Of a stretch of 41,880 nucleotides of DNA, positions 2,450 through 41,880 are shown piece by piece. The stretch lies in NCBI GenBank assembly GCA_015064155.1, contig SVST01000021.1:1-41880 (forward strand). Reading direction: 5' to 3'. The DNA is from Oscillospiraceae bacterium. Lineage in GTDB: Bacteria; Bacillota; Clostridia; Oscillospirales; CAG-272. Every line of letters begins with the position of its first letter. Position 1 is the first letter of the stretch. The notes below the pieces were generated by a model, which was given only the letters and a program-made list of their open reading frames with translations, had not been told where the DNA came from and did not search any database. Made by a program: the position numbers and the translations under genes.

Positions 2450-2830
2450 TTGTGGGGAGGCTTTTTGTGGGGAGGAACTTTTTTCAAAAAGTTCCTCCCC
2501 ACACCCCTCTTCAAAAACTTTCACAGCATTTTATTTTTTTCTTGGGAAAACTTTTGAAAAAGTTTTCCCAAACCCTTTCAAAACTTTCACAGCATTTTTT
2601 ATTGCGTGAGAGTTTTTATTTTTTTGTGTCGGACGTACGGTACTGCCGACAGTTTTCAGGTGCCACCACCCTGAAAACTCTGGCGAGGAAGCAACACTCT
2701 TTGGGGTATTTCTGTAGGGACCGGCGTCCTCGACGGTCCGTGGCAAATACTTGGTATTGCCGAAAAGTAGGGACGACCATCGGTCGTCCGCTGGAGAGTG
2801 TAGACCAAAGCAAGTGTAATTATCAAAATA
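2450..2830. repeat. Mosaic intergenic repeat cluster 1
   Basis: This gap between divergent genes holds several modules in series. Two outer hairpins lie at 2467-2502 and 2542-2572 (GGGGAGGAAC and TTGGGAAAAC stems). The CTTTCACAGCATTTT module follows each of them. A perfect 10-bp stem, AGTTTTCAGG (2651-2660) with CCTGAAAACT (2670-2679), encloses the loop TGCCACCAC. A nested palindrome has arms ACACTCT (2694-2700) / AGAGTGT (2795-2801) and GTATTT (2706-2711) / AAATAC (2745-2750). It contains two smaller hairpins, GGACCG...CGGTCC (2718-2739) and GGACGACC-ATC-GGTCGTCC (2771-2789). No gene is present. Confidence 0.85.
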
Positions 2831-7453: not shown

Positions 7454-8127
7454 GGACGCAAGGGCGCGATTTTGGGGGCGCGGTTTTGGGGGAGAAACTT
7501 TTGAAAAAGTTTCTCCCCCATACCCCCTCTTCAAAACTTTCACCGCATTTTTTGTTGTGTGAGAGTGTTAATCTTTCGTGTCGGACTTCGATATACTGCC
7601 GTTAGCATTTTGCCGTTGCCAAAACGCTCTGGCGAAAAGGAAACATTCACACATTTTCGTAAAAGAGGGAATGATTTTCTTTTCATATCACGGATGCAGA
7701 GCATCCTACCCCTCATCCGTCACCTGCGGTGACACCTTCCCCCCAGGGGGAAGGCTTTCATGGACATCGCCTTGACAGAGTTTATATATCGTAATTGTTA
7801 TCAACTTATTGAAACGTAGTAACTAAATTTTATTAAAATACAAGCACTTGACTTGATAAAGCGGCAACTTTTCAGAAGCCTTCCCCCTTGGGGGAAGGTG
7901 ACGAGGAACGAGGCGGATGAGGGGTAGCCAACTCAAAACTATCTTCTTCGGCAGAGCGTTGTGGCTACGGCACAATGCTAACGGCAGTACCGAGCGTTCG
8001 ACACAAAAAACAAAAACTCTCACACAATAAAAAATTCTGTGAAAGTTCTTGAAAGGGGTGTGGGGAAAACTTCTTGAAAGAAGTTTTCCCCACAAAAGAA
8101 AAAAGAAAAAAGAAAGGAGGGGATCAG
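7454..8127. repeat. Mosaic intergenic repeat cluster 2: full nested palindrome
   Basis: The gap contains one large mirror-symmetric element. From the outside in: hairpin GGGGGAGAAAC...GTTTCTCCCCC (7488-7519); the CTTTCACCGC...GTGTGAGAG module; a stem AGCATTTTG/CAAAACGCT (7604-7628); the tract with GGATGC-AGA-GCATCC (7693-7707); TCACC-TGC-GGTGA (7720-7732) beside CCTTCCCCCC...GGGGGAAGG. An AT-rich unique core follows (about 7770-7870). The inverted series then runs CCTTCCCCC...GGGGGAAGG (7875-7927), AGCGTTGTG/CACAATGCT (7955-7979), CTCTCACAC...TGTGAAAG, and GTGGGGAAAAC...GTTTTCCCCAC (8060-8093). The last hairpin ends 35 bp before the penicillin-binding protein gene. TTGACA at 7772-7777 has no good -10 box, so that gene's promoter is not clear. 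Confidence 0.85.
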
Positions 8128-10185
8128 ATGGAGAAGACTGTTCGGAAATGGCGGTTTATGGGAGTAGCCGTTTTGTTTTGTGTGATCAGTGTTATTTATT
8201 TGGGTCGACTGTTTTACATTCAGATTTCGGGCAGGGTGCGCGGCACCGAGCAAAAGAACGAGATACGGACGGTCACCATTCAAGCGGTGCGCGGCGAAAT
8301 TTTTGACCGCAACGGGGAGCTGCTGGTAGGCAACCGATACACCTACGATCTGGTTCTCTCTTACAAGACCTTTTCGTCGATGGACGTACGGGAGGCGAAC
8401 CGCGAGTGCCTGCAGATTTTGCAGGGGCTTTCGGAGAATCCCGAAGAGGGGAGCAACCTGCGAGAGGAGCGTTATTTTCCGTTTGAGGGGACTTACCCGT
8501 ATTATCGGTATTCCGAAGCGGCTTTGGACGGTGAGTCGGTGGTCTATTTTCGTCTGCAGCGCGTGCTGTCGGATTTGAAGCTGGACGGAGATCTTACTGC
8601 CAAGGAGCTGGCGGAATACTATATAGATGCGCACGGGCTTTTGATGAAGCAAAACAACGGCAAGCGGTATTTTGACGACGATCAGGTTGATGCCTTGATT
8701 CGTCTGTATTACGACATGGATGCCCAGCGGTTTCGTGCGCTTGGGGAATACGTTTTTGCCGAAAACGTCAATCTGTCTGCGATGACGTATATCAAGGAGT
8801 TGTCGGTTTCGCTGGCAGTGTTCCACATGAATGCCGAGCGTGTATACGAGTATCCCGGATACGCGTCGCATATTCTCGGCAGGGTAGGTCCCATTTATGC
8901 CGAAACCTGGTCGTACTACAAGGAGCAGGGCTATCAGATGAATGCCATTGTCGGCATCGACGGCTGTGAAGCCGCGTTTGAGTCCTATCTTCGCGGCATC
9001 GACGGCGAGATGGAGATTGAGCTGGACGCGTCGGGAACCCTTTTGCGCTCCACTGTTAAAAAGGAGCCCGTGGCGGGGAAGGACGTGTATCTGACCATCG
9101 ACGTCGATCTGCAGATTGCCGCCGAGGACGGGCTTGCCGAGAACGTTGCGTTGGTGGTGGAAAAATCCAACGGGTACGCATCAAAGGGAAGCGACTGCAA
9201 CGCGGGCGCGGCTGTGGTGATGGATCCCAACGATTTTTCGATATTGGCACTGGCGTCCTATCCCACCTACGATCTTTCCACCTACAGCCTTTTGTACAAC
9301 GATCTTTTGGCAGATCCCGCGGGTCCGTTGCGCAATCGCGCGCTGAACGAGAGTTACGCGCCGGGATCGACCTACAAGTTAGGCGTTGCCGCGGCGGCGA
9401 TGTGCGAGGGGCTTTTGGAAGCCGGTGAGCGTGTGCTTTGCAATCGGGTTTCTCCATATGGATCGAACCCCACTTGCTCGACCTACTCGCAGCACCCGAA
9501 TGAATATCTGAACGTCCGCGAAGCGATTGCCGATTCCTGCAACCTGTTCTTTTACGAGATCGGGCATCGCTTTGACATCAATGAAAAGCTGAGCGATATG
9601 GGTGCTTTTATGAGCAAGCTCGGCTTTGGGCGTGCCACGGGAGTGGAGCTTCCCGAAGCAATCGGAAGCGTGTCTGACCCCAACGACTGGGGCTCCACCG
9701 ACAGCACGTGGAAATCCTTGTTTGCCGCGATCGGGCAAGCAAACGACGCAACGCCGCTTCAGCTGAGCTGTTATCTCGGCACGTTGCTTGGCGGAACGCG
9801 CTACGCGGCGCATCTGTTATACGGAGTTTCCGAGTTCGGAAGTGACGGCATTACGCAAAAAAACGAGCCGGTGGTATTGGACACCGTAGAGATCCCCACG
9901 TGGGTTCTTGACGAGATCGTGGGCGGCATGAAGCAGGTGGTCACCGATAACGCAACGGTGCGCTCCAATTTTTCAGAGGTGCGCAAGAAGATGACCGTAG
10001 GCGCAAAAACGGGTACGGCGCAGGTTGGCGGTGACAATCCCGACAACGCGCTGTTCGTCTGTGCCGCACCGATTGAAAGCCCCGAGCTTGTGATCTCGGT
10101 GGTGCTGGAAAAGGGTGCGGGCGGTAGTGCCGCGTCCCTGACCGCCGCGCGGATTCTGGAAGCCTATCTCAAAAAACAGCCTTGA
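8128..10185 (+). CDS. Class B penicillin-binding protein (D,D-transpeptidase, PBP2-like)
   Basis: The product is 685 residues: a short basic N-terminus, one membrane anchor (about residues 9-30), a dimerisation/pedestal domain beginning ITIQAVRGEIFDRNGELL-like, then the transpeptidase domain. Catalytic motifs are S414-T-Y-K417 (SxxK), S470-C-N472 (SxN) and K627-T-G629 (KTG). It cross-links peptidoglycan outside the membrane, most likely during elongation or sporulation-linked synthesis. The start is ATG 8128 after AGAAAGGAGGGG. An upstream in-frame ATG at 8074 is rejected because it would translate part of the repeat hairpin. It probably forms an operon with yqeG and the endonuclease gene downstream. 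Confidence 0.93.
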   Translation: MEKTVRKWRFMGVAVLFCVISVIYLGRLFYIQISGRVRGTEQKNEIRTVTIQAVRGEIFDRNGELLVGNRYTYDLVLSYKTFSSMDVREANRECLQILQGLSENPEEGSNLREERYFPFEGTYPYYRYSEAALDGESVVYFRLQRVLSDLKLDGDLTAKELAEYYIDAHGLLMKQNNGKRYFDDDQVDALIRLYYDMDAQRFRALGEYVFAENVNLSAMTYIKELSVSLAVFHMNAERVYEYPGYASHILGRVGPIYAETWSYYKEQGYQMNAIVGIDGCEAAFESYLRGIDGEMEIELDASGTLLRSTVKKEPVAGKDVYLTIDVDLQIAAEDGLAENVALVVEKSNGYASKGSDCNAGAAVVMDPNDFSILALASYPTYDLSTYSLLYNDLLADPAGPLRNRALNESYAPGSTYKLGVAAAAMCEGLLEAGERVLCNRVSPYGSNPTCSTYSQHPNEYLNVREAIADSCNLFFYEIGHRFDINEKLSDMGAFMSKLGFGRATGVELPEAIGSVSDPNDWGSTDSTWKSLFAAIGQANDATPLQLSCYLGTLLGGTRYAAHLLYGVSEFGSDGITQKNEPVVLDTVEIPTWVLDEIVGGMKQVVTDNATVRSNFSEVRKKMTVGAKTGTAQVGGDNPDNALFVCAAPIESPELVISVVLEKGAGGSAASLTAARILEAYLKKQP

Positions 10186-10202
10186 CGCGAAAGGATATAG
10201 CT

Positions 10203-10742
10203 ATGAAGGATTATTTGACCCCCGACTATATGTTTGGGCATTACTATGAAATTACACCCGAATTTTTGCAGTCGATCGGTGTGCGTGCGCTTCTCATTGA
10301 CATTGACAACACGCTGGCACCCTACGAGCAGCCCGACCCCGACGAGTCGATTCGTGCGTGGTTTGCGCGTCTTGCCGAAGCGGGTATTTCGGTGGCGTTG
10401 GTTTCCAACAATCACGCGCCGCGTGTTGAGCGATTCAACCAAACGCTGGGGCTTCTCGCCTATCCCGACAGCGGCAAGCCGAAGCGCAAAACGCTGGAGA
10501 TTGCCATGCAAAAGCTTGGTGTGACGCATGCTGAAACCGCGATGCTGGGCGATCAGCTTCTCACCGACGCGTATGCCGGCAAGCACATCGGACTTCGCGC
10601 GATTATCGTGCCGCCGATTCACGACAAAACCAATCTGTTCTTCCGCTTCAAGCGGCTTTGTGAGCGTCCGTTCATTCGCAAATTTGCCAAAAAGAACCGA
10701 TACCGTGACTATCTTTCCTTTTGGAAGATCAAGAAAAAGTGA
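10203..10742 (+). CDS. YqeG family HAD IIIA-type phosphatase
   Basis: The product is 179 residues. The HAD motif I is D33-I-D35-N-T, motif II is VALVSNN, the lysine region is SGKPKRKTLEIA, and motif III is MLGDQLLTDAYAG. The C-terminal basic region RFKRLCERPFIRKF is typical of YqeG. Family members are cytoplasmic phosphatases; Bacillus YqeG lies in a conserved ribosome-assembly and DNA-replication neighbourhood, but its physiological substrate is not established. The start is ATG 10203 (GAAAGGA ahead). A TTG at 10182 overlapping the previous stop is the alternative. Confidence 0.9.
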   Translation: MKDYLTPDYMFGHYYEITPEFLQSIGVRALLIDIDNTLAPYEQPDPDESIRAWFARLAEAGISVALVSNNHAPRVERFNQTLGLLAYPDSGKPKRKTLEIAMQKLGVTHAETAMLGDQLLTDAYAGKHIGLRAIIVPPIHDKTNLFFRFKRLCERPFIRKFAKKNRYRDYLSFWKIKKK

Positions 10743-10751
10743 GGAATCCGT

Positions 10752-11600
10752 ATGAGTATTGCAACCTTTGGCCCCGGCGGAAACGGGGATCTGTTTTACG
10801 CGGACGGCGGAAAATCGACCGTACAAGCACCCGGTTGGGTCAAGCGGTTTGGTCTTGACGCTTTCGAATACGAGGCGGGGAATGGGCTGACCGCGGGCGA
10901 GTCCTCCTTGCGTGCCGTTGGCGAAAAAGCCCGCGAGCACGGCATCAAAATGTCGTTGCACACCCCGTATTACATTTCGCTTTCGGGGGTCGATCCCGAA
11001 AAACGGCTGAAAAGCATCGATTATATCCAAAAGTCGCTTTGGGCAGCCGAGCTTTTGGGTGCCGACACCATTGTGATCCACAGCGGCAGCGCGGCAAAAA
11101 TCTCGCGTGCGGAAGCCATGGCACTCTCCAAGGACACCTTGGGAAAGGTCGCCGAAGCGGTTGGGGAAACCTCCATCCGTTTGGGAATCGAAACGATGGG
11201 GAAGATCAACCAGCTTGGCACGCTGGACGAAGTGATCGAGCAGTGTCGCGTGTCCCCCATCTATGCCCCCGTGGTTGATTTCGGACACCTCAACGCGCGC
11301 AACGTCGGCGGTGCGTTCCCCGATACCGATGCCTATCGCCGTGTCTTTGATACCATTGCAACGCAGCTTGGCGACTCCTTTGCACAGTCGCTTCACTGCC
11401 ATTTCTCCAAAATTGCCTACACCTCGGCAGGCGAGAAAAAACACCTCACCTTTGCCGATTCCGAGTTCGGTCCCCTCTTCGAGCCCCTTGCCGAAGCCAT
11501 CGTCAAAGAGCGCGTCGCTCCCCGCATCATCTGCGAGTCCGACGGTACCCAAGCCGAAGACGCCCTCTATATGAAAAAAGCCTACCTCTCTTTGCTGTAA
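10752..11600 (+). CDS. Endonuclease IV-like (AP endonuclease family 2) TIM-barrel protein
   Basis: The product is 282 residues. The order of metal-ligand regions matches endonuclease IV: SLHTPYYISL, IHSGSA, LGIETMGK, VVDFGHLNAR, LHCHFSKI and ICESDG. Such enzymes use three zinc ions to cut the backbone 5' of abasic sites in base excision repair. The aspartate of the usual D-x-H ligand pair is not obvious near EKKHLTF, so activity could differ, and a sugar-isomerase role in the same fold cannot be excluded. It follows yqeG by 9 bp and is probably cotranscribed. Confidence 0.8.
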   Translation: MSIATFGPGGNGDLFYADGGKSTVQAPGWVKRFGLDAFEYEAGNGLTAGESSLRAVGEKAREHGIKMSLHTPYYISLSGVDPEKRLKSIDYIQKSLWAAELLGADTIVIHSGSAAKISRAEAMALSKDTLGKVAEAVGETSIRLGIETMGKINQLGTLDEVIEQCRVSPIYAPVVDFGHLNARNVGGAFPDTDAYRRVFDTIATQLGDSFAQSLHCHFSKIAYTSAGEKKHLTFADSEFGPLFEPLAEAIVKERVAPRIICESDGTQAEDALYMKKAYLSLL

Positions 11601-12379
11601 AGACGCGGGGACGCGGCTTTTTGGGGGAGAAACTTTTGAAAAAGTTTCTCCCCCATACCCCCTCTTCAAAACTTTCACAGCAATTTTTCTTGTGTGAAAG
11701 TGTTCGCTTCTCGTGTCGGACTTCGATATACTGCCGATAGCATTTTGCCGTTGCCAAAACGCTCTGGCGAAAAAGAAGCCTTCCCCTTGAGGGGAAGGGG
11801 GACCGCGCAGCGGTGGATGAGGTGTAGGATGCGAAGCATCCGTGATATGAAAAGAAAATCATTCCCTCATCCACGAAAATGTGTGGATGTTGCTGTCGAA
11901 CGAAACGGGTTCGGGGACCCCTCATCCGCCTCGTTCCTCGGCACCTTCCCCCGAGGGGGAAGGCTTTCTTTCGCCAGAGCATTTTCCCTTGGGCAAAATG
12001 CTAACGGCAGTATATCGAAGTCCGACACAAAAAAATAAAAACCCTCACACAATAAAAAATTCTGTGAAAGTTTTGAGGGGTTTGGGGAACTTTTTCAAAA
12101 GTTCCCCAAGAAAAAATTTTCTCAAAAGTTCCCCATAAAACCCGCGTCCTCGCATCCTCCCGGCAGAGCCGGCAGGGTGGTGGCACCTGACGGCTAACGG
12201 CAGTACCTAAGGTTCGACAGAACCAAATGAAAACTTTTACACCAGATATCAAGTTTTGGAAAAGTTTTGAGGGGTTTGGGGAACTTTTTCAAAAGTTCCC
12301 CAAGAAAAAAATTTTCTCAAAAGTTCCCCAAGAAAAAATTTTCTCAAAAGTTCCTATGCAAGATCAAGAAAGGACAGTT
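11601..12379. repeat. Mosaic intergenic repeat cluster 3: nested palindrome plus uvrD-leader repeats
   Basis: The mirror arrangement of cluster 2 recurs. Left arm: GGGGGAGAAAC hairpin (11623-11654), CTTTCACAGC module, AGCATTTTG/CAAAACGCT stem, CTTCCCCTTGAGGGGAAG with CCGC-GCA-GCGG (11803-11813), and GGATGC-GAA-GCATCC. Right arm: CCTTCCCCCGAGGGGGAAGG, AGCATTTTCCC/GGGCAAAATGCT (11978-12002), CTCACACAAT...TGTGAAAG, and TTGGGGAAC hairpin (12082-12109). After this comes a further degenerate half-unit (12118-12303) with the GGCAGGGTGGTGGCACCTG stem variant. No gene is present apart from the uvrD leader. Confidence 0.85.
12291..12355. repeat. Short tandem repeat in the uvrD/pcrA leader
   Basis: A unit reading AAAAGTTCCCCAAG followed by AAAAAATTTTCTC occurs as 28 bp (12291-12318), 27 bp (12319-12345) and a 10-bp remnant (12346-12355) that runs into ATG 12356. 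The units derive from the right half of the family hairpin. They end 24 bp before the chosen helicase start. Confidence 0.85.
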
Positions 12380-14851
12380 ATGATAGAGCAAGAATATTTA
12401 GAAGCCAAGCGTGCGTTATTTGACAAGGTCTACGCAGCGTTGAACGAGAAGCAGCGCGAGGCGGTTTTTACAATCAATCATCCGTTACTGGTGCTTGCGG
12501 GAGCAGGAAGCGGAAAGACGACGGTGCTGGTACGTCGAATTGCTTTTTTGATCCGCTACGGAAACGCGTATATGAGCGAGTACGTGCCGTACGGAGTGGA
12601 TGCTGCGCGGGTACGCGAGCTGAGGGAGGCACTGTCCCTGCCTGCTGCCGAGATTGAGTCGGGGATTTTGCCCGAATTTACCAACAATGCCTGCGAGCCC
12701 TACCGCGTTTTGGCAATCACCTTTACCAACAAGGCGGCAAACGAGATCAAGTCGCGTCTTGCCAAAATGTTCCCCGAGGAGGACGGTGTGGCAAGCGAGA
12801 TCTGGACGGGAACCTTCCATTCGGTCTGCTTGCGGATTTTGCGTCGGCACTGCGAGAAATGCGGTTACCGTGAGGGCTTTACCATTTATGATACCGACGA
12901 TTCCAAGAAGACCGCGATTACCGCCATGCGTGACTGCAACGTGGATGAAAAGCTGTTGCCCGTCAAGGGGGTACTGAGTGCCATCAGCCGCGCAAAGGAT
13001 CGGTTGATTTCGCCCGACGGCTATCTTTTGGAGGCGGGAAACGATTTCCGTGCCAAGCAGATCGGCAGAGTTTACGAGCGCTATCAGCAGCTGCTTCGCG
13101 AGTCCAATGCCATGGATTTTGACGATATCATCATGCAAACCGTCCTGCTTTTGAAGAACCACGCCGAGGTGCGTGAGGCGTATCAGAAGCGGTTCAAGTA
13201 CGTCTGCGTGGACGAGTTTCAGGATACCAACGTCGCCCAGCTCCATCTTACGGTTTTGCTTTCGGGCTTCCATCAAAATTTGATGGTGGTTGGTGACGAC
13301 GACCAGAGTATTTATAAATTCCGCGGAGCCACCATTGAAAATATTTTGACCTTTGACAAGACCTTCCCCGACGCAAAGGTGATCAAATTGGAGCAAAACT
13401 ACCGTTCCACGCAAAATATTTTGGATGCCGCCAACGCGGTCATTAAGAACAATGCGGGAAGAAAGGGAAAAACGCTTTGGACGGCGGCAGGCGAGGGGGA
13501 AAAGCTCCACCTGCGGATCTGCGACGATCAAAATGCCGAGGCACGCTTTGTGGTGGATACGGTGAACCGTATCGTTGCGAAAGGCACGGCAACCTATCGC
13601 GATTTTGCGGTTTTGTACCGCACCAACGCGCAATCCAACAGCATTGAAAAGGCGTTTGCACGCTCGGGAGTTCCGTACCGTGTGCTGGGCGGCACGCGCT
13701 TTTCCGACCGTAAGGAGATCCGTGACGCGGTTGCCTATCTGCAGCTTGTGAGCAATCACGACGATAACGTCCGTCTTGCCCGTATCATCAACGAGCCGCG
13801 TCGAAAGATCGGAGCCAAGACGCTGGATGCCATTGCCGCGATTGCCGAGGAGCAGGGAAAAAGTCATTTTTGGGTGATCGAGCATGCGGCAAGCTTCGTT
13901 GCCCTGGAGCGCAGCCGTGCGATTCTTGAGGGCTTTGCCGATCTGATTATTTCTTTGACCGAGCTTTCCGAGCGCGTGTCGATGGACGTGCTGTTTGACG
14001 CGGTGCTGGATCGTTCGGGTTACCGTCAGATGTTGATCGACGCGGGCGAGGAGGAAGCAGAGCGTTTGGAAAACCTGACCGAGTTTAAGTCGGGTATTTT
14101 GGAATACATCAAAGAAAACGAAGACCCCACTTTGGTCGGTTTTTTGGAGGAAACCGCGCTGGTTGCCGACGTTGACCGTTACGATGAAAGTGCCGATGCG
14201 GTGGTGATGATGACCATCCACAGCGCAAAGGGCTTGGAATTTCCCATCGTCTTTTTGCCGGGTATGGAGGACGGACTCTTCCCCGGAATGCAGACCATCA
14301 CGGCGGGCGAGAGCGAGATGGAGGAGGAGCGACGTCTTGCTTACGTTGCCATTACGCGTGCCAAGCGGGAGCTGTATCTGTTGCACACCAAAAACCGCCT
14401 TTTGTACGGACAAACCATGTACAATCCCGTTTCGCGGTTTGTCAGCGAAATCCCCGAAGCCTTGATCGAGCAGCCCCGCGAGGACCGTTTCGGTAGCCTC
14501 GGCGCGAAGTCGGGCTTTGGCTCTTACGGGGGCTTTGGTTCACGCGGAACCGATGCACCCGCATCGCAAAAACGGGTCTATTATACCGCACCGTCCACGC
14601 ACGTGCAGGTCAAGCCGCAGGCAACGCCCGCGCCCGAACGGATTACGGTTGGCAAGCCGATCGTGCACACGCCGAGCGCGAAAAATCTGACGCTGTTTGC
14701 ACCCGGGGATCGCGTTCGTCACATGACCTTTGGCGAGGGCGAGGTGCTGTCTGTGCGTCCGATGGGTGCCGATACCTTGTACGAGATCGTGTTTGACCGC
14801 GTGGGAACCAAAAAGCTGATGGCAACCTACGCAAAGCTGACAAAGATATAA
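12380..14851 (+). CDS. pcrA: ATP-dependent 3'-5' DNA helicase, PcrA/UvrD family
   Basis: The product is 823 residues, full length for superfamily 1A. Motif I (Walker A) is GAGSGKTT with K46; motif Ia is ITFTNKAA; motif II is D278-E279 in VDEFQDTN; motif III region is VVGDDDQSIYKFRGA; motif IV QNYRST; motif V/VI IHSAKGLEFPIVF and VAITRAK. A roughly 40-residue insert lies between motifs I and Ia. The C-terminal RVRHMTFGEGEV region is the PcrA Tudor-like domain that contacts RNA polymerase. It acts in nucleotide excision repair and replication-fork clearance. The start ATG 12380 has AGAAAGGA ahead. Upstream in-frame ATGs (12227, 12356) would translate repeat sequence and are not preferred. Confidence 0.95.
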   Translation: MIEQEYLEAKRALFDKVYAALNEKQREAVFTINHPLLVLAGAGSGKTTVLVRRIAFLIRYGNAYMSEYVPYGVDAARVRELREALSLPAAEIESGILPEFTNNACEPYRVLAITFTNKAANEIKSRLAKMFPEEDGVASEIWTGTFHSVCLRILRRHCEKCGYREGFTIYDTDDSKKTAITAMRDCNVDEKLLPVKGVLSAISRAKDRLISPDGYLLEAGNDFRAKQIGRVYERYQQLLRESNAMDFDDIIMQTVLLLKNHAEVREAYQKRFKYVCVDEFQDTNVAQLHLTVLLSGFHQNLMVVGDDDQSIYKFRGATIENILTFDKTFPDAKVIKLEQNYRSTQNILDAANAVIKNNAGRKGKTLWTAAGEGEKLHLRICDDQNAEARFVVDTVNRIVAKGTATYRDFAVLYRTNAQSNSIEKAFARSGVPYRVLGGTRFSDRKEIRDAVAYLQLVSNHDDNVRLARIINEPRRKIGAKTLDAIAAIAEEQGKSHFWVIEHAASFVALERSRAILEGFADLIISLTELSERVSMDVLFDAVLDRSGYRQMLIDAGEEEAERLENLTEFKSGILEYIKENEDPTLVGFLEETALVADVDRYDESADAVVMMTIHSAKGLEFPIVFLPGMEDGLFPGMQTITAGESEMEEERRLAYVAITRAKRELYLLHTKNRLLYGQTMYNPVSRFVSEIPEALIEQPREDRFGSLGAKSGFGSYGGFGSRGTDAPASQKRVYYTAPSTHVQVKPQATPAPERITVGKPIVHTPSAKNLTLFAPGDRVRHMTFGEGEVLSVRPMGADTLYEIVFDRVGTKKLMATYAKLTKI

Positions 14852-14912
14852 AACGGTACGGAGCAAGTGACCGTACTCCGTGAATCGACAACAAGAGAGG
14901 AGAACCGTTTAT

Positions 14913-15296
14913 ATGGATATTCGAGAAATCAGCGCGCCCGCGCTTGCCTACCTCGGGGACTGTGTTCTGGAGCTGTGTGTACGGCGGCATTTGGTGGAAA
15001 AGGGACTTTCCACGTCGGCGCACCTGAATGCCGAAGCGTTGGATTTCGTGCGCGCGCCCGCGCAAGCCGAGGCAATGAAGCGAATCCTGCCGCACCTGAC
15101 CGAGGAGGAGGATCGTTATTTCCGCCGCGGCAGAAATTTGGGGCACGGGAACGTCCCCAAGCGTGCCACAGTGAGCGAATACCGCGCCGCTACGGGCATG
15201 GAGGCTCTGTTTGGATATCTGCACCTGACAGGGCAGTCCGAGCGCATCGACGAGCTGTTCCGCCTTGCCTATTTTTCCGGTGATATAACTGAGTAA
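14913..15296 (+). CDS. mrnC: Mini-ribonuclease III
   Basis: The product is 127 residues, the usual size of Mini-RNase III, a dimeric RNase III-like enzyme without a double-stranded RNA-binding domain. The signature ALAYLGDCVLELCVR carries the catalytic aspartate, followed by RGRNLGHGNVPK and the second acidic motif region EYRAATGMEALFGYLHL. It matures 23S rRNA ends. The start is ATG 14913 with AGAGAGGAGA ahead; a GTG at 14880 is less likely. It follows pcrA by 61 bp with a small GTACGG/CCGTAC hairpin between them, and is probably in the same operon. Confidence 0.93.
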   Translation: MDIREISAPALAYLGDCVLELCVRRHLVEKGLSTSAHLNAEALDFVRAPAQAEAMKRILPHLTEEEDRYFRRGRNLGHGNVPKRATVSEYRAATGMEALFGYLHLTGQSERIDELFRLAYFSGDITE

Positions 15297-15958
15297 AGGG
15301 ATTTGTGGGGAGAAACTTTTTGAAAAAAAGTTTCTCCCCACACCCCACTTCAAAAACTTTCACAGCATATTTTTGTGTGTGAGAGTTTTTATTTTTTTTG
15401 TGTCGGACTCTCGGTACTGCCGATAGCATTTTGCCGTGGCCAAAACGCTCTGGCGAAAAAGAAGCCTTCCCCCTCGGGGTAGCGAAGCGGCGCGAGGGCA
15501 ATGAATGACAGCCCGGTGGGCTGTCAGAACCCGAGCGTGACCGAGCCGCAGCGAGACAGGGGGACCGCAGGTGACGGATGAGGGGTCCCCGAACCCGTTT
15601 CGTTCGACAGCAACATCCTCATATTTTCGGAGGAGTGTTGATTTTTCATCAATCCCAAGTTTTTGAAACGGACCGTCGAGGACGCCGGTCCCTACAGATT
15701 CACACATTCTCGTAAAAGAGGGGATGATTTTCGCTTCATATCACGGATGCTTCGCATCCTACCCCTCATCCGCCTCGTTCCTCGGCACCTTCCCCCGAGG
15801 GGGAAGGCTTCTTTTTCGCCAGAGCGTTTTGGCAACGGCAAAATGCTATCGGCAGTACCTAAAGTTCGAGGAAAAAAATAAAAACTTTCACGCATAGAAA
15901 AATGCTGTGAAAGTTTTGAGGGGTGTGGGGAACTTTTTCAAAAGTTCCCCACAAAAAA
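15297..15958. repeat. Mosaic intergenic repeat cluster 4: nested palindrome between convergent genes
   Basis: The third copy of the nested layout. Left arm: GTGGGGAGAAAC hairpin (15305-15341), CTTTCACAGC module, AGCATTTTGCC/GGCCAAAACGCT stem, and CCTTCCCCCTCGGGG with a long insert containing CTGACAGCCC-type pairing (ACAGCCCGG/TGGGCTGT near 15510-15526). The core holds GGACCG...CGGTCC (15670-15691). Right arm: GGATGC-TTC-GCATCC, CCTTCCCCCGAGGGGGAAGG, AGCGTTTTGGC/GGCAAAATGCT, CTTTCACGCAT...ATGCTGTGAAAG and GTGGGGAAC hairpin (15925-15952). The last stem ends 7 bp from the stop of the minus-strand ceramidase-like gene and may serve both converging transcripts. Confidence 0.85.
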
Positions 15959-24313: not shown

Positions 24314-24983
24314 TGTTTTTGGGGGAGAAACTTTTGAAAAAGTTTCTCCCCCATACCCCCTCTTCAAAACTTTCACAGCATTTTTTATGTGTGAAAGTTT
24401 TTGTTTTTTTATGTCGGACTTCGATATACTGCCGTTAGCATTTTGCCGTGGCCAAAACGCTCTGCCGAGGGACGCAGTTTTGGGGGAGGAACTTTTTGAA
24501 AAAAGTTCCTCCGCGTTTTTTCTTGGGGAATTTTTGAAAAAGGGTCCCAAGAACCCCGCATCCTCGCATCCTTTCGGCAGAGCCGGCAGGGTGGTGGCAC
24601 CTGACGGCTGTCGGCAGTATATCGAAGTCCGACATAAAAAAACAAAAACTCTCACACACGAAAAAATGCTGTGAAAGTTTTGAAAGGGTTTGGGAAAACT
24701 TTTCCAAAAGTTTTCCCAAGAAAAAACACAAAAAATGCTGTGAAAGTTTTTGAGGGGTGTGGGGAACTTTTTTCAAAAAGTTCCCCACGAAAACCGTAGC
24801 CCCACGGCAGAGCCGGCAGGGTGGTGGCACCTGACGGCTGTCGGCAGTACCTGCGGTTCGATAGAATCAAATGAAAACTATTACATAGACGAAAAATTTT
24901 AGGAAAGTTTTGAGGGGTGTGGGGAACTTTTTCAAAAGTTCCCCACGAAAAGCTCTTTTTTCAAAAGTTCCCTATCAAAATTC
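24314..24983. repeat. Mosaic intergenic repeat cluster 5 between convergent genes
   Basis: This gap is packed with first-family modules but lacks the CCTTCCCC part. Outer hairpins lie at 24321-24352, 24482-24512 (imperfect), 24690-24719, 24759-24788 and 24919-24946. A stem of the AGCATTTTG type follows the first. The AGCCGGCAGG/CCTGACGGCT variant appears near 24581-24617 and again near 24811-24843, both inverted. CTTTCACAGCATTTTT-type modules lie between. The last part (24850-24910) is a degenerate unit much like the one upstream of pcrA. No gene is present. Confidence 0.85.
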
Positions 24984-41544: not shown

Positions 41545-41880
41545 CAGATAAGGATATATTATTTTGAAAAAAGGTTTTTCGTGGGGAACTTTTGAAAAAG
41601 TTCCCCACACCCCTCAAAACTTTCACAGCATTTTTCTATGCGTGAGAGTTTTTCTTTTTTCTATCGAACCATAGGTACTGACGATAGCCGTCAGGTGCCA
41701 CCACCCTGCCGGCTCTGCCGTGGGGGCGCGGGGACGCGATTTTTATGGGGGAGCTTTTGAAAAAGTTCCCCACACCCCTCAAAACTTTCACAGCATTTTT
41801 CTATGCGTGAGAGTTTTTCTTTTTTCTATCGAACCATAGGTACTGACGATAGCCGTCAGGTGCCACCACCCTGCCGGCTC
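41545..41880. repeat. Mosaic repeat cluster 6 with 165-bp direct tandem duplication
   Basis: The gap after the last gene holds two direct copies of a first-family half-unit. Copy one is 41589-41753; copy two starts at 41754 and runs off the window at 41880, matching copy one base for base as far as I can read. Each has the CTTTTGAAAAAG hairpin, the CTTTCACAGCAT...ATGCGTGAGAG module and the stem AGCCGTCAGG/CCTGCCGGCT (41686-41714) around the loop TGCCACCAC. Upstream the hairpin GTGGGGAAC is complete only in copy one. No gene is present. Confidence 0.9.

Follow-up and report, generated by a model that had tools for sequence, protein, structure and literature searches.

Three intergenic gaps in a 41,880-nt stretch of DNA from an Oscillospiraceae bacterium (assembly GCA_015064155.1, contig SVST01000021.1; this whole stretch is called the window below) raise the question of what a long mirror-symmetric repeat does between genes and what keeps its parts in order. 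The source genome, that of a gut bacterium, comprises 2.14 Mb in 29 contigs and is 86% complete. Our reading, to which we give a probability of about 0.55, is that the gaps hold copies of a multi-copy intergenic repeat capping the 3′ ends of genes, that an intrastrand triple helix best accounts for the coupling between a hairpin (H1) and a following third strand in mirror order, and that a second hairpin (H2) acts in the gene-sense RNA.

All three gaps are long imperfect inverted repeats, whose single-strand DNA folds reach -176.4, -164.1 and -217.9 kcal/mol (elements 1, 2 and 3) at z scores of -21.1, -21.4 and -27.4; none of 20, 100 and 20 shuffles, respectively, was as stable. The first-pass annotation had described three mirror-symmetric mosaics here, and the symmetry stands, but they are three of many: element 2 gave 188 blast matches within the genome. 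The repeating unit, or arm, is about 120 bp long and consists of H1 (a G-run hairpin), a short C/T tail, H2 with a T-rich end, and variable stems. A profile of its outer 119 positions has 112 non-overlapping matches in 345 kb, of which 80 cover at least 80 positions and 69 score above 60 bits (strong arms); this sample joins the window to 20 stretches chosen around arm matches and is not random. No Rfam family reached its gathering score in the window. The parts of the three elements, including a nested module called C, are as follows.

7488..8091, no strand: element 1, consisting of left arm (+), a core of C(+), 118 nt and C(-), and right arm (-)
7488..7519, plus strand: left H1 hairpin of element 1, GGGGGAGAAAC-TTT..AAA-GTTTCTCCCCC
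7523..7537, plus strand: left mirror tail of element 1, CCCCC-TCTTC-AAAA-C, matching the prediction from its own H1
7533..7569, plus strand: left H2 hairpin of element 1, an 11-pair stem in the arm alignment
7708..7925, no strand: nested C(+)..C(-) element of 218 bp in element 1, 84% identical to L036:4799-5016
8013..8049, minus strand: right H2 of element 1
8045..8058, minus strand: right mirror tail of element 1, CCCC-TTTC-AAGAA-C, suited to its own H1 and not to the left arm
8062..8091, minus strand: right H1 of element 1, of a different type (GGGGAAAAC-TTCTT)
11623..12107, no strand: element 2 (DNA fold, profile matches)
11623..11654, plus strand: left H1 of element 2
11658..11672, plus strand: left mirror tail of element 2, matching the prediction
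11668..11704, plus strand: left H2 of element 2
11762..11780, plus strand: arm-to-C junction CTCTGGCGAAAAAGAAGCC of element 2, exact
11776..11825, minus strand: C module of element 2 (profile match)
11917..11966, plus strand: C module of element 2 (profile match)
12038..12074, minus strand: right H2 of element 2
12070..12080, minus strand: right mirror tail of element 2, CCCC-TC-AAAA-C, matching the prediction
12084..12107, minus strand: right H1 of element 2 (GGGGAAC type)
15307..15950, no strand: element 3 (DNA fold, profile matches)
15307..15339, plus strand: left H1 of element 3
15343..15357, plus strand: left tail of element 3, CCCC-ACTTC-AAAAA-C, one base from the prediction (CCCCTCTTC)
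15353..15389, plus strand: left H2 of element 3, followed by a T-rich run
15448..15466, plus strand: arm-to-C junction CTCTGGCGAAAAAGAAGCC on the left of element 3, exact
15761..15810, plus strand: C module of element 3 (profile match)
15806..15824, minus strand: third copy of the arm-to-C junction CTCTGGCGAAAAAGAAGCC, reverse complement, in the right arm of element 3
15881..15917, minus strand: right H2 of element 3
15913..15923, minus strand: right mirror tail of element 3, CCCC-TC-AAAA-C, matching the prediction
15927..15950, minus strand: right H1 of element 3 (GGGGAAC type)

Among adjacent full-arm pairs sharing a gap outside called genes, the orientations --, +-, ++ and -+ occurred 17, 12, 6 and 3 times, and in all three -+ pairs the matches overlap by 34-36 bp and represent the palindromic H1 read backwards; one weak H1-inward match (L042:5319, 27.6 bits) was excluded because it overlaps a called gene. 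Module order is thus not random, and opposite arms carry H1 outward, which accounts for the mirror symmetry. The earlier description of a single order read inward from both ends needs correcting: the left C module of element 3 has shrunk to a 20-bp match (15462-15481), and the two arms within an element did not come from duplicating one sequence, their H1 sequence types differing in all three elements. The GGATGC hairpin, described as mirrored, is present once per element (7692, 11827 and 15745), and its copy in element 1 lies outside the C pair rather than in the centre. The junction reported as identical in two elements is indeed exact in both and has the third, reverse-complement copy listed above; its recurrence bears out the proposal that modules travel as a composite. 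Arms of the three elements are ~74-92% alike and the elements align with one another only inside modules, and since the matches end there and both the cores (as had been noted) and the neighbouring genes differ, a single segmental duplication is excluded.

The tail varies with H1, a coupling absent from the first-pass annotation. In an alignment of 63 arms, H1 and tail were paired as GGGAAAAC/CCCTTTC, GGGAACC/CCCTCC, GGGGAAC/CCCCTC, GGGGAAAC/CCCCTTC and GGGGGAGAAAC/CCCCCTCTTC, and stems with TTCTT, TTTT or TTTTT were followed by tails with AAGAA, AAAA or AAAAA, respectively. The tail is therefore the same-direction complement of the H1 3′ arm, in mirror order to it, and not its reverse complement. 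Because Watson-Crick strands are antiparallel, they do not give a same-direction complement; we found no ordinary pairing that predicts the coupling, whereas a third strand does. Hairpin and tail are separated by a 3-nt linker (ACA, AAA or ATA) in the 15 parsed arms of the window.

We quantified the coupling over 170 exact H1 hairpins in ~1.97 Mb, of which 132 had a parsable tail (38 were dropped), giving 65 distinct species-H1-tail combinations. An exact rule, under which the C-run equals the G-run, the purines are complemented minus one and the middle C's are retained, described 39 of the 65, compared with a permutation mean of 4.6 and a maximum of 13 in 5000, or a mean of 13.4 and a maximum of 25 when shuffling was confined within species. 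C-run length was right in 51 of 65 and A-run length in 54 (permutation means 24.3 and 25.1). The observed exact, C-run and A-run counts were attained in 0 of 5000 permutations, within-species shuffles included; as the copies share descent, these permutations overstate significance. Skipping 0, 1 or 2 bases gave exact agreement in 1, 39 and 4 of 65, which singles out the single skip.

The same relation appeared with a parser-free pattern containing two independent gaps, AAAAGTTN{0,2}CCCCNNNCCCCTN{0,2}CAAAACTTT, applied to the whole genomes of 35 members of the genus. It occurred at 76 places in seven of these genomes, and at all 76 a T-run of k in the H1 3′ arm went with k-1 in the tail, whereas within-genome shuffles averaged 57.0 and never exceeded 70. 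With descent shared among copies, and a few of those at contig ends possibly duplicated, the 76 are not independent events. T-runs of 2, 3 and 4 in the hairpin accompanied 1, 2 and 3 in the tail at 26, 38 and 12 places (with an extra C at one place), and every place fits in the four genomes that each carry more than one T-run type. Asymmetric cases also obey mirror order, AGAA going with TCTT in genomes G000 and G023. The tail fits its own H1 exactly in 5 of 6 arms of the three elements and in 13 of 15 over the window; as the two arms of each element differ in H1 type, pairing between left and right tails is not the constraint. Watson-Crick partners for the tail in the opposite arm, a slipped partner or the upstream flank were weighed by hand, and none was found to predict mirror coupling. 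The coupling continues beyond the purine block, only the first 5-10 bases being homopurine, into the T-run of the stem. Past that block the purines lie on the opposite side of the stem; a third strand could follow them only by crossing over, and the skipping of one pair at that point fits the data.

Arms sit at the 3′ ends of genes. Of 55 outermost H1s across the 345 kb, with genes called by a simple codon-usage gene caller, 43 were directed toward a gene 3′ end, and 36 of these lay 3-34 nt from the stop codon; the 12 directed toward a 5′ end were all at least 33 nt away. Of 34 gaps between convergent genes 17 contained arms, compared with 20 of 180 between co-directional and 1 of 36 between divergent genes. 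Three of the 80 arm matches overlapped called genes and were excluded from the island table. Because these placement and island counts still contain some wrong-strand matches to the palindromic H1, placement was repeated with the strand set by the tail, and H1 was directed toward the 3′ end in 57 of 67 cases in the source genome (30 within 40 nt, inner arms counted) and in 37 of 52 in other members of the genus (29 within 40 nt); among the latter, four of the 15 H1s directed toward a 5′ end were also within 40 nt. At the loci of these other members, an H1 was present in 15 of the 41 gaps between convergent genes, in 26 of the 156 between co-directional genes and in 2 of the 52 between divergent genes. 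The inference that the elements are not simply terminators, drawn from their presence between co-directional genes as well, was thus too quick, given this distribution and outer ends that hug stop codons.

H2 carries a strand signature. Its AT-rich, 11-pair stem, in which each column pair is 87-100% paired over the 63 arms, is followed by T-rich columns, and on the gene-sense strand its non-Watson-Crick pairs number 52 G.T, 2 A.C and 17 other, or 15 G.T vs 2 A.C over 17 distinct H2 stems. Such an asymmetry is what RNA pairing would leave, and it points to the gene-sense RNA. When six arms were folded as RNA, H1 and H2 formed (z -5.4 to -8.8), and five of the six tails stayed unpaired.

The triple-helix reading draws on the known rules of triplex pairing and strand orientation. 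For the triplex classes and the orientation of their strands we follow the sections of PMC4666352 that set them out. In the proposed structure, the H1 stem would be the duplex and the tail would lie along it as third strand, switching sides where the stem turns from purine to pyrimidine, with one base pair skipped at the crossing. Read on the gene-sense strand, the third strand would run parallel to the purine 5′ arm, with C over G-C and T over A-T; read on the opposite strand, it would run antiparallel, with G over G-C and A over A-T. H2 and its T-rich end would act in the gene-sense RNA, probably as a terminator or an mRNA 3′ end. To judge from sequence, then, the triplex probably forms, it may act in RNA rather than in DNA, and the arm may end transcripts. 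The long mirror elements could have arisen when H1-outward arms came to occupy both sides of a gap and C elements became nested between them, arm-plus-C pieces then being copied onward.

Several observations weigh against this reading. The exact rule fails in 26 of 65 combinations, many of them by a single base, chiefly a T opposite a lone G in the purine block; A's in that block are tracked in 79 of 81 cases, lone G's in only 12 of 21 (the other 9 are T). H1 type GGGGGAGC goes with CCCCCGC, for which no standard triad accounts, and the duplex does not offer one unbroken homopurine strand of a single class I-IV. Near purine hairpins, class I mirror partners outnumbered direct ones in the source genome (41 vs 19 of 120) and in the genus (57 vs 27 of 158), in counts that scanned both strands and may include hairpins twice, but not in the DNA of other relatives (15 vs 16 of 92), and for class II the source genome showed the reverse, 5 mirror and 23 direct of 112. 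C-runs are unfavourable in C+GC triplexes at neutral pH. In H2, 44 of the 52 G.T pairs fall at a single column pair; a terminator consensus scan flagged neither H1 nor H2, yielding 16 sites compared with 13.8 +- 3.4 in shuffles; and the right arm of element 1 points at a 5′ end, where a terminator is not needed. For PIT elements in Escherichia coli, earlier studies found, according to PMC4666352, neither terminator nor promoter activity.

A 123-bp arm was matched in 18 of 40 relatives, all of the same genus, and in 0 of 15 genomes from other families of the order; outside the source species the matches listed mostly span only the part from H1 to tail, and in G004 and G011 the same outer arm part caps different interiors. 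Of 291 genomes sampled from the class, the source genome alone contained the coupled pattern. Relatives identified through the UvrD/PcrA helicase were mostly metagenome-assembled genomes labelled Clostridia or Oscillospiraceae, from herbivore guts (among the best 80 of 139). In six relatives (L051, L053, L054, L057, L061 and L080) the two genes that flank element 1 are adjacent, and none of the six has an arm match in the gap, which is short in the four inspected more closely; the genes that flank element 2 lie ~30 bp apart in L056.

Empty sites of this kind, together with long inverted arms, nested composites and an arm pair around two open reading frames (ORFs; L037:6371-8202), would suit ordinary miniature inverted-repeat transposable elements (MITEs), non-autonomous units with long terminal inverted repeats that a DDE transposase moves in trans and whose hairpins are incidental. 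We regard this as unlikely, since no direct repeat longer than 4 nt is shared between the 25-nt flanks of the three elements, so that no target duplication was seen, arms also occur singly and in tandem, placement is bound to stop codons, and the mirror coupling would go unexplained. Improbable, too, is an account in which the arms are plain intrinsic terminators homogenised by gene conversion and the tail is a spacer under Watson-Crick constraint, whether from the tail of the opposite arm or from a slipped partner outside H1. The position at stop codons, the T-rich end of H2 and its sense-strand wobble agree with that account, and by reasoning a slipped pairing of the tail C-run with the H1 G-run could link the run lengths. 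Such pairing links neither the inner A-run to the tail T-run, which agreed at all 76 places, nor the middle C's; the tails suit the H1 of their own arm and not the opposite arm, coupling was also seen in partnerless arms (uncounted), and the terminator scan was negative. Most doubtful of all is spread by a Y1 transposase (RAYT, REP-associated tyrosine transposase) as for repetitive extragenic palindromic sequences (REPs) and bacterial interspersed mosaic elements (BIMEs): the arrangement resembles BIMEs (the 3′ side of genes, fixed opposite pairs, clusters) and Y1 genes exceed the family cut-off in 5 of 35 genus genomes, but without relation to arm number, with none detected in the source genome (86% complete) or in the arm-rich G004, G010, G011 and G021, one in G014, which has no arm match, loci L181-L184, which surround four of the genus Y1 genes, free of arm and C matches, and REP tags near H1 at 1 of 82 (GTAG/CTAC) and 0 of 82 (CGTC/GACG). 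The first-pass likening to BIME/REP mosaics therefore survives for arrangement and not for identity, and no Y1 gene, which it suggested looking for beside a copy, was detected in this genome.

We return to the reading of a gene-capping arm with a triple helix. A broader form of it, which we put forward tentatively and hold to be the less probable statement, is that these are genus-wide gene 3′-end modules whose three-strand covariation would be the trace of a functioning triple helix, one that changes strand part-way and is located either at the 3′ ends of mRNAs or in the DNA that follows them, with BIME-like spread without a RAYT. Triple-helix 3′-end elements exist in viral and mammalian RNAs, and if the genus-wide reading is true, the arms would be a bacterial analogue of these in effect. 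The repeats are a real and orderly family, and the covariation evidence for a third strand is the main surprise. Bacterial triplex-forming repeats have so far been proposed from single sequences and oligonucleotide work, with no clear role. In the present family, hairpin and third strand remain matched, next to stop codons, across dozens of naturally varied copies from several species, which is comparative evidence of the type used for RNA helices; this opens the function of an intrastrand triplex to a direct test with matched vs mismatched tails. A covariation argument for triplex repeats was met neither in searches confined to an open-access library nor in the passages and sections of PMC4666352 consulted, in whose main text 'covaria' and 'compensat' do not occur.

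Single arms, oppositely oriented pairs and direct arrays are all present, and at several loci a half arm (about positions 1-68) is joined outside a full arm. Six arm copies at ~176-bp spacing form one such array in L032 (6379-7417), where the period of ~176 bp is broken by 10 N in the assembly. Elsewhere in the window the profile located the following.

146-232: arm match
2469..2652, plus strand: H1-plus-tail half arm joined to a full arm
12193..12301, minus strand: additional arm adjoining element 2
24320..24946, no strand: island of one plus arm and several minus arms, with convergent genes on either side
41581..41853, plus strand: two arms in direct order

Nested C..C elements of 216-218 bp were found at four places (the window, L034, L035 and L036) and are 84% identical between the window and L036, 87% between L034 and L035, and, in the orientation compared, 53-61% in the remaining pairs. 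C-module stems of the type GGGGGAAGG (window 11776-11825 and others) are followed by a small hairpin and then by GGATGAGGGG, roughly the mirror of the stem, and another repeat pairs GAGGGAG with TGAGGGAGA; with few C types available, these two are possibly a second mirror-coupled family. The short repeat GTAGGGACCGGCGTCCTCGACGGTCCG is nested in several elements, its copies at 2711-2766 and 15643-15698 of the window being 89% alike. Searches of plasmids with element 2 gave only a C-module match and no arm: window positions 11777-11817 (41 bp) are 95% identical to a Selenomonas ruminantium plasmid (NC_017078.1), which shows that the C module is not confined to the genus. Phages gave no match to element 2, and the exact 41-base arm pattern occurred 0 times in IMG/VR.

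At L037:6371-8202, H1-outward arms enclose ~1.5 kb with two ORFs, of 81 aa (minus strand) and 151 aa (plus strand), neither of them called by the gene caller; the 81-aa ORF resembles a small helix-turn-helix regulator by eye, and the locus is a possible cargo-carrying element. At L036:5275-5537 an arm is next to the point where an ORF begins; the contig end truncates this ORF, which by eye resembles an insertion-sequence gene. Genes around the three elements of the window include, by Pfam, those for a CAAX protease, a penicillin-binding protein, a HAD hydrolase, a TIM-barrel protein, the UvrD/PcrA helicase and an RNase III-domain protein.

Among known systems, the closest kind is that of the intrastrand triplex repeats PIT, BoxC and TM (TM-ECO), as described in part of Holder et al. 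2015 (PMC4666352). These likewise have three consecutive blocks, a hairpin pair and a third block in mirror order after a 3-nt loop, and many intergenic copies, some as inverted pairs, with one genus rich and its relatives poor. The published TM-ECO consensus pattern has 0 matches in the 345 kb, and its order is pyrimidine, purine, third strand, whereas the reverse strand of the arm has the class I order, third strand first; in the arm, unlike PIT, BoxC and TM, the third strand would change sides and is part of a longer unit with H2. BoxC is reported there to show no correlation with gene orientation, whereas arms sit at stop codons. MITEs share with the elements the long inverted arms, the lack of a transposase inside and the nested insertions, and differ from them in that no target duplication was seen here and single arms and tandem arrays are common. 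By arrangement the arms are BIME-like: REPs and BIMEs, in the relevant passages of PMC3733652 and PMC12306157, are palindromic, lie 3′ of genes with a share near stop codons, and are clustered in opposite orientation, and the arms are likewise rare between divergent genes; they differ in having neither GTAG nor CGTC tags, no detected Y1 and a long multi-hairpin unit with a mirror tail. E. coli REPs near stop codons have been linked to ribosome stalling (a passage of PMC12306157), and by analogy stalling may be a further effect of arms near stop codons.

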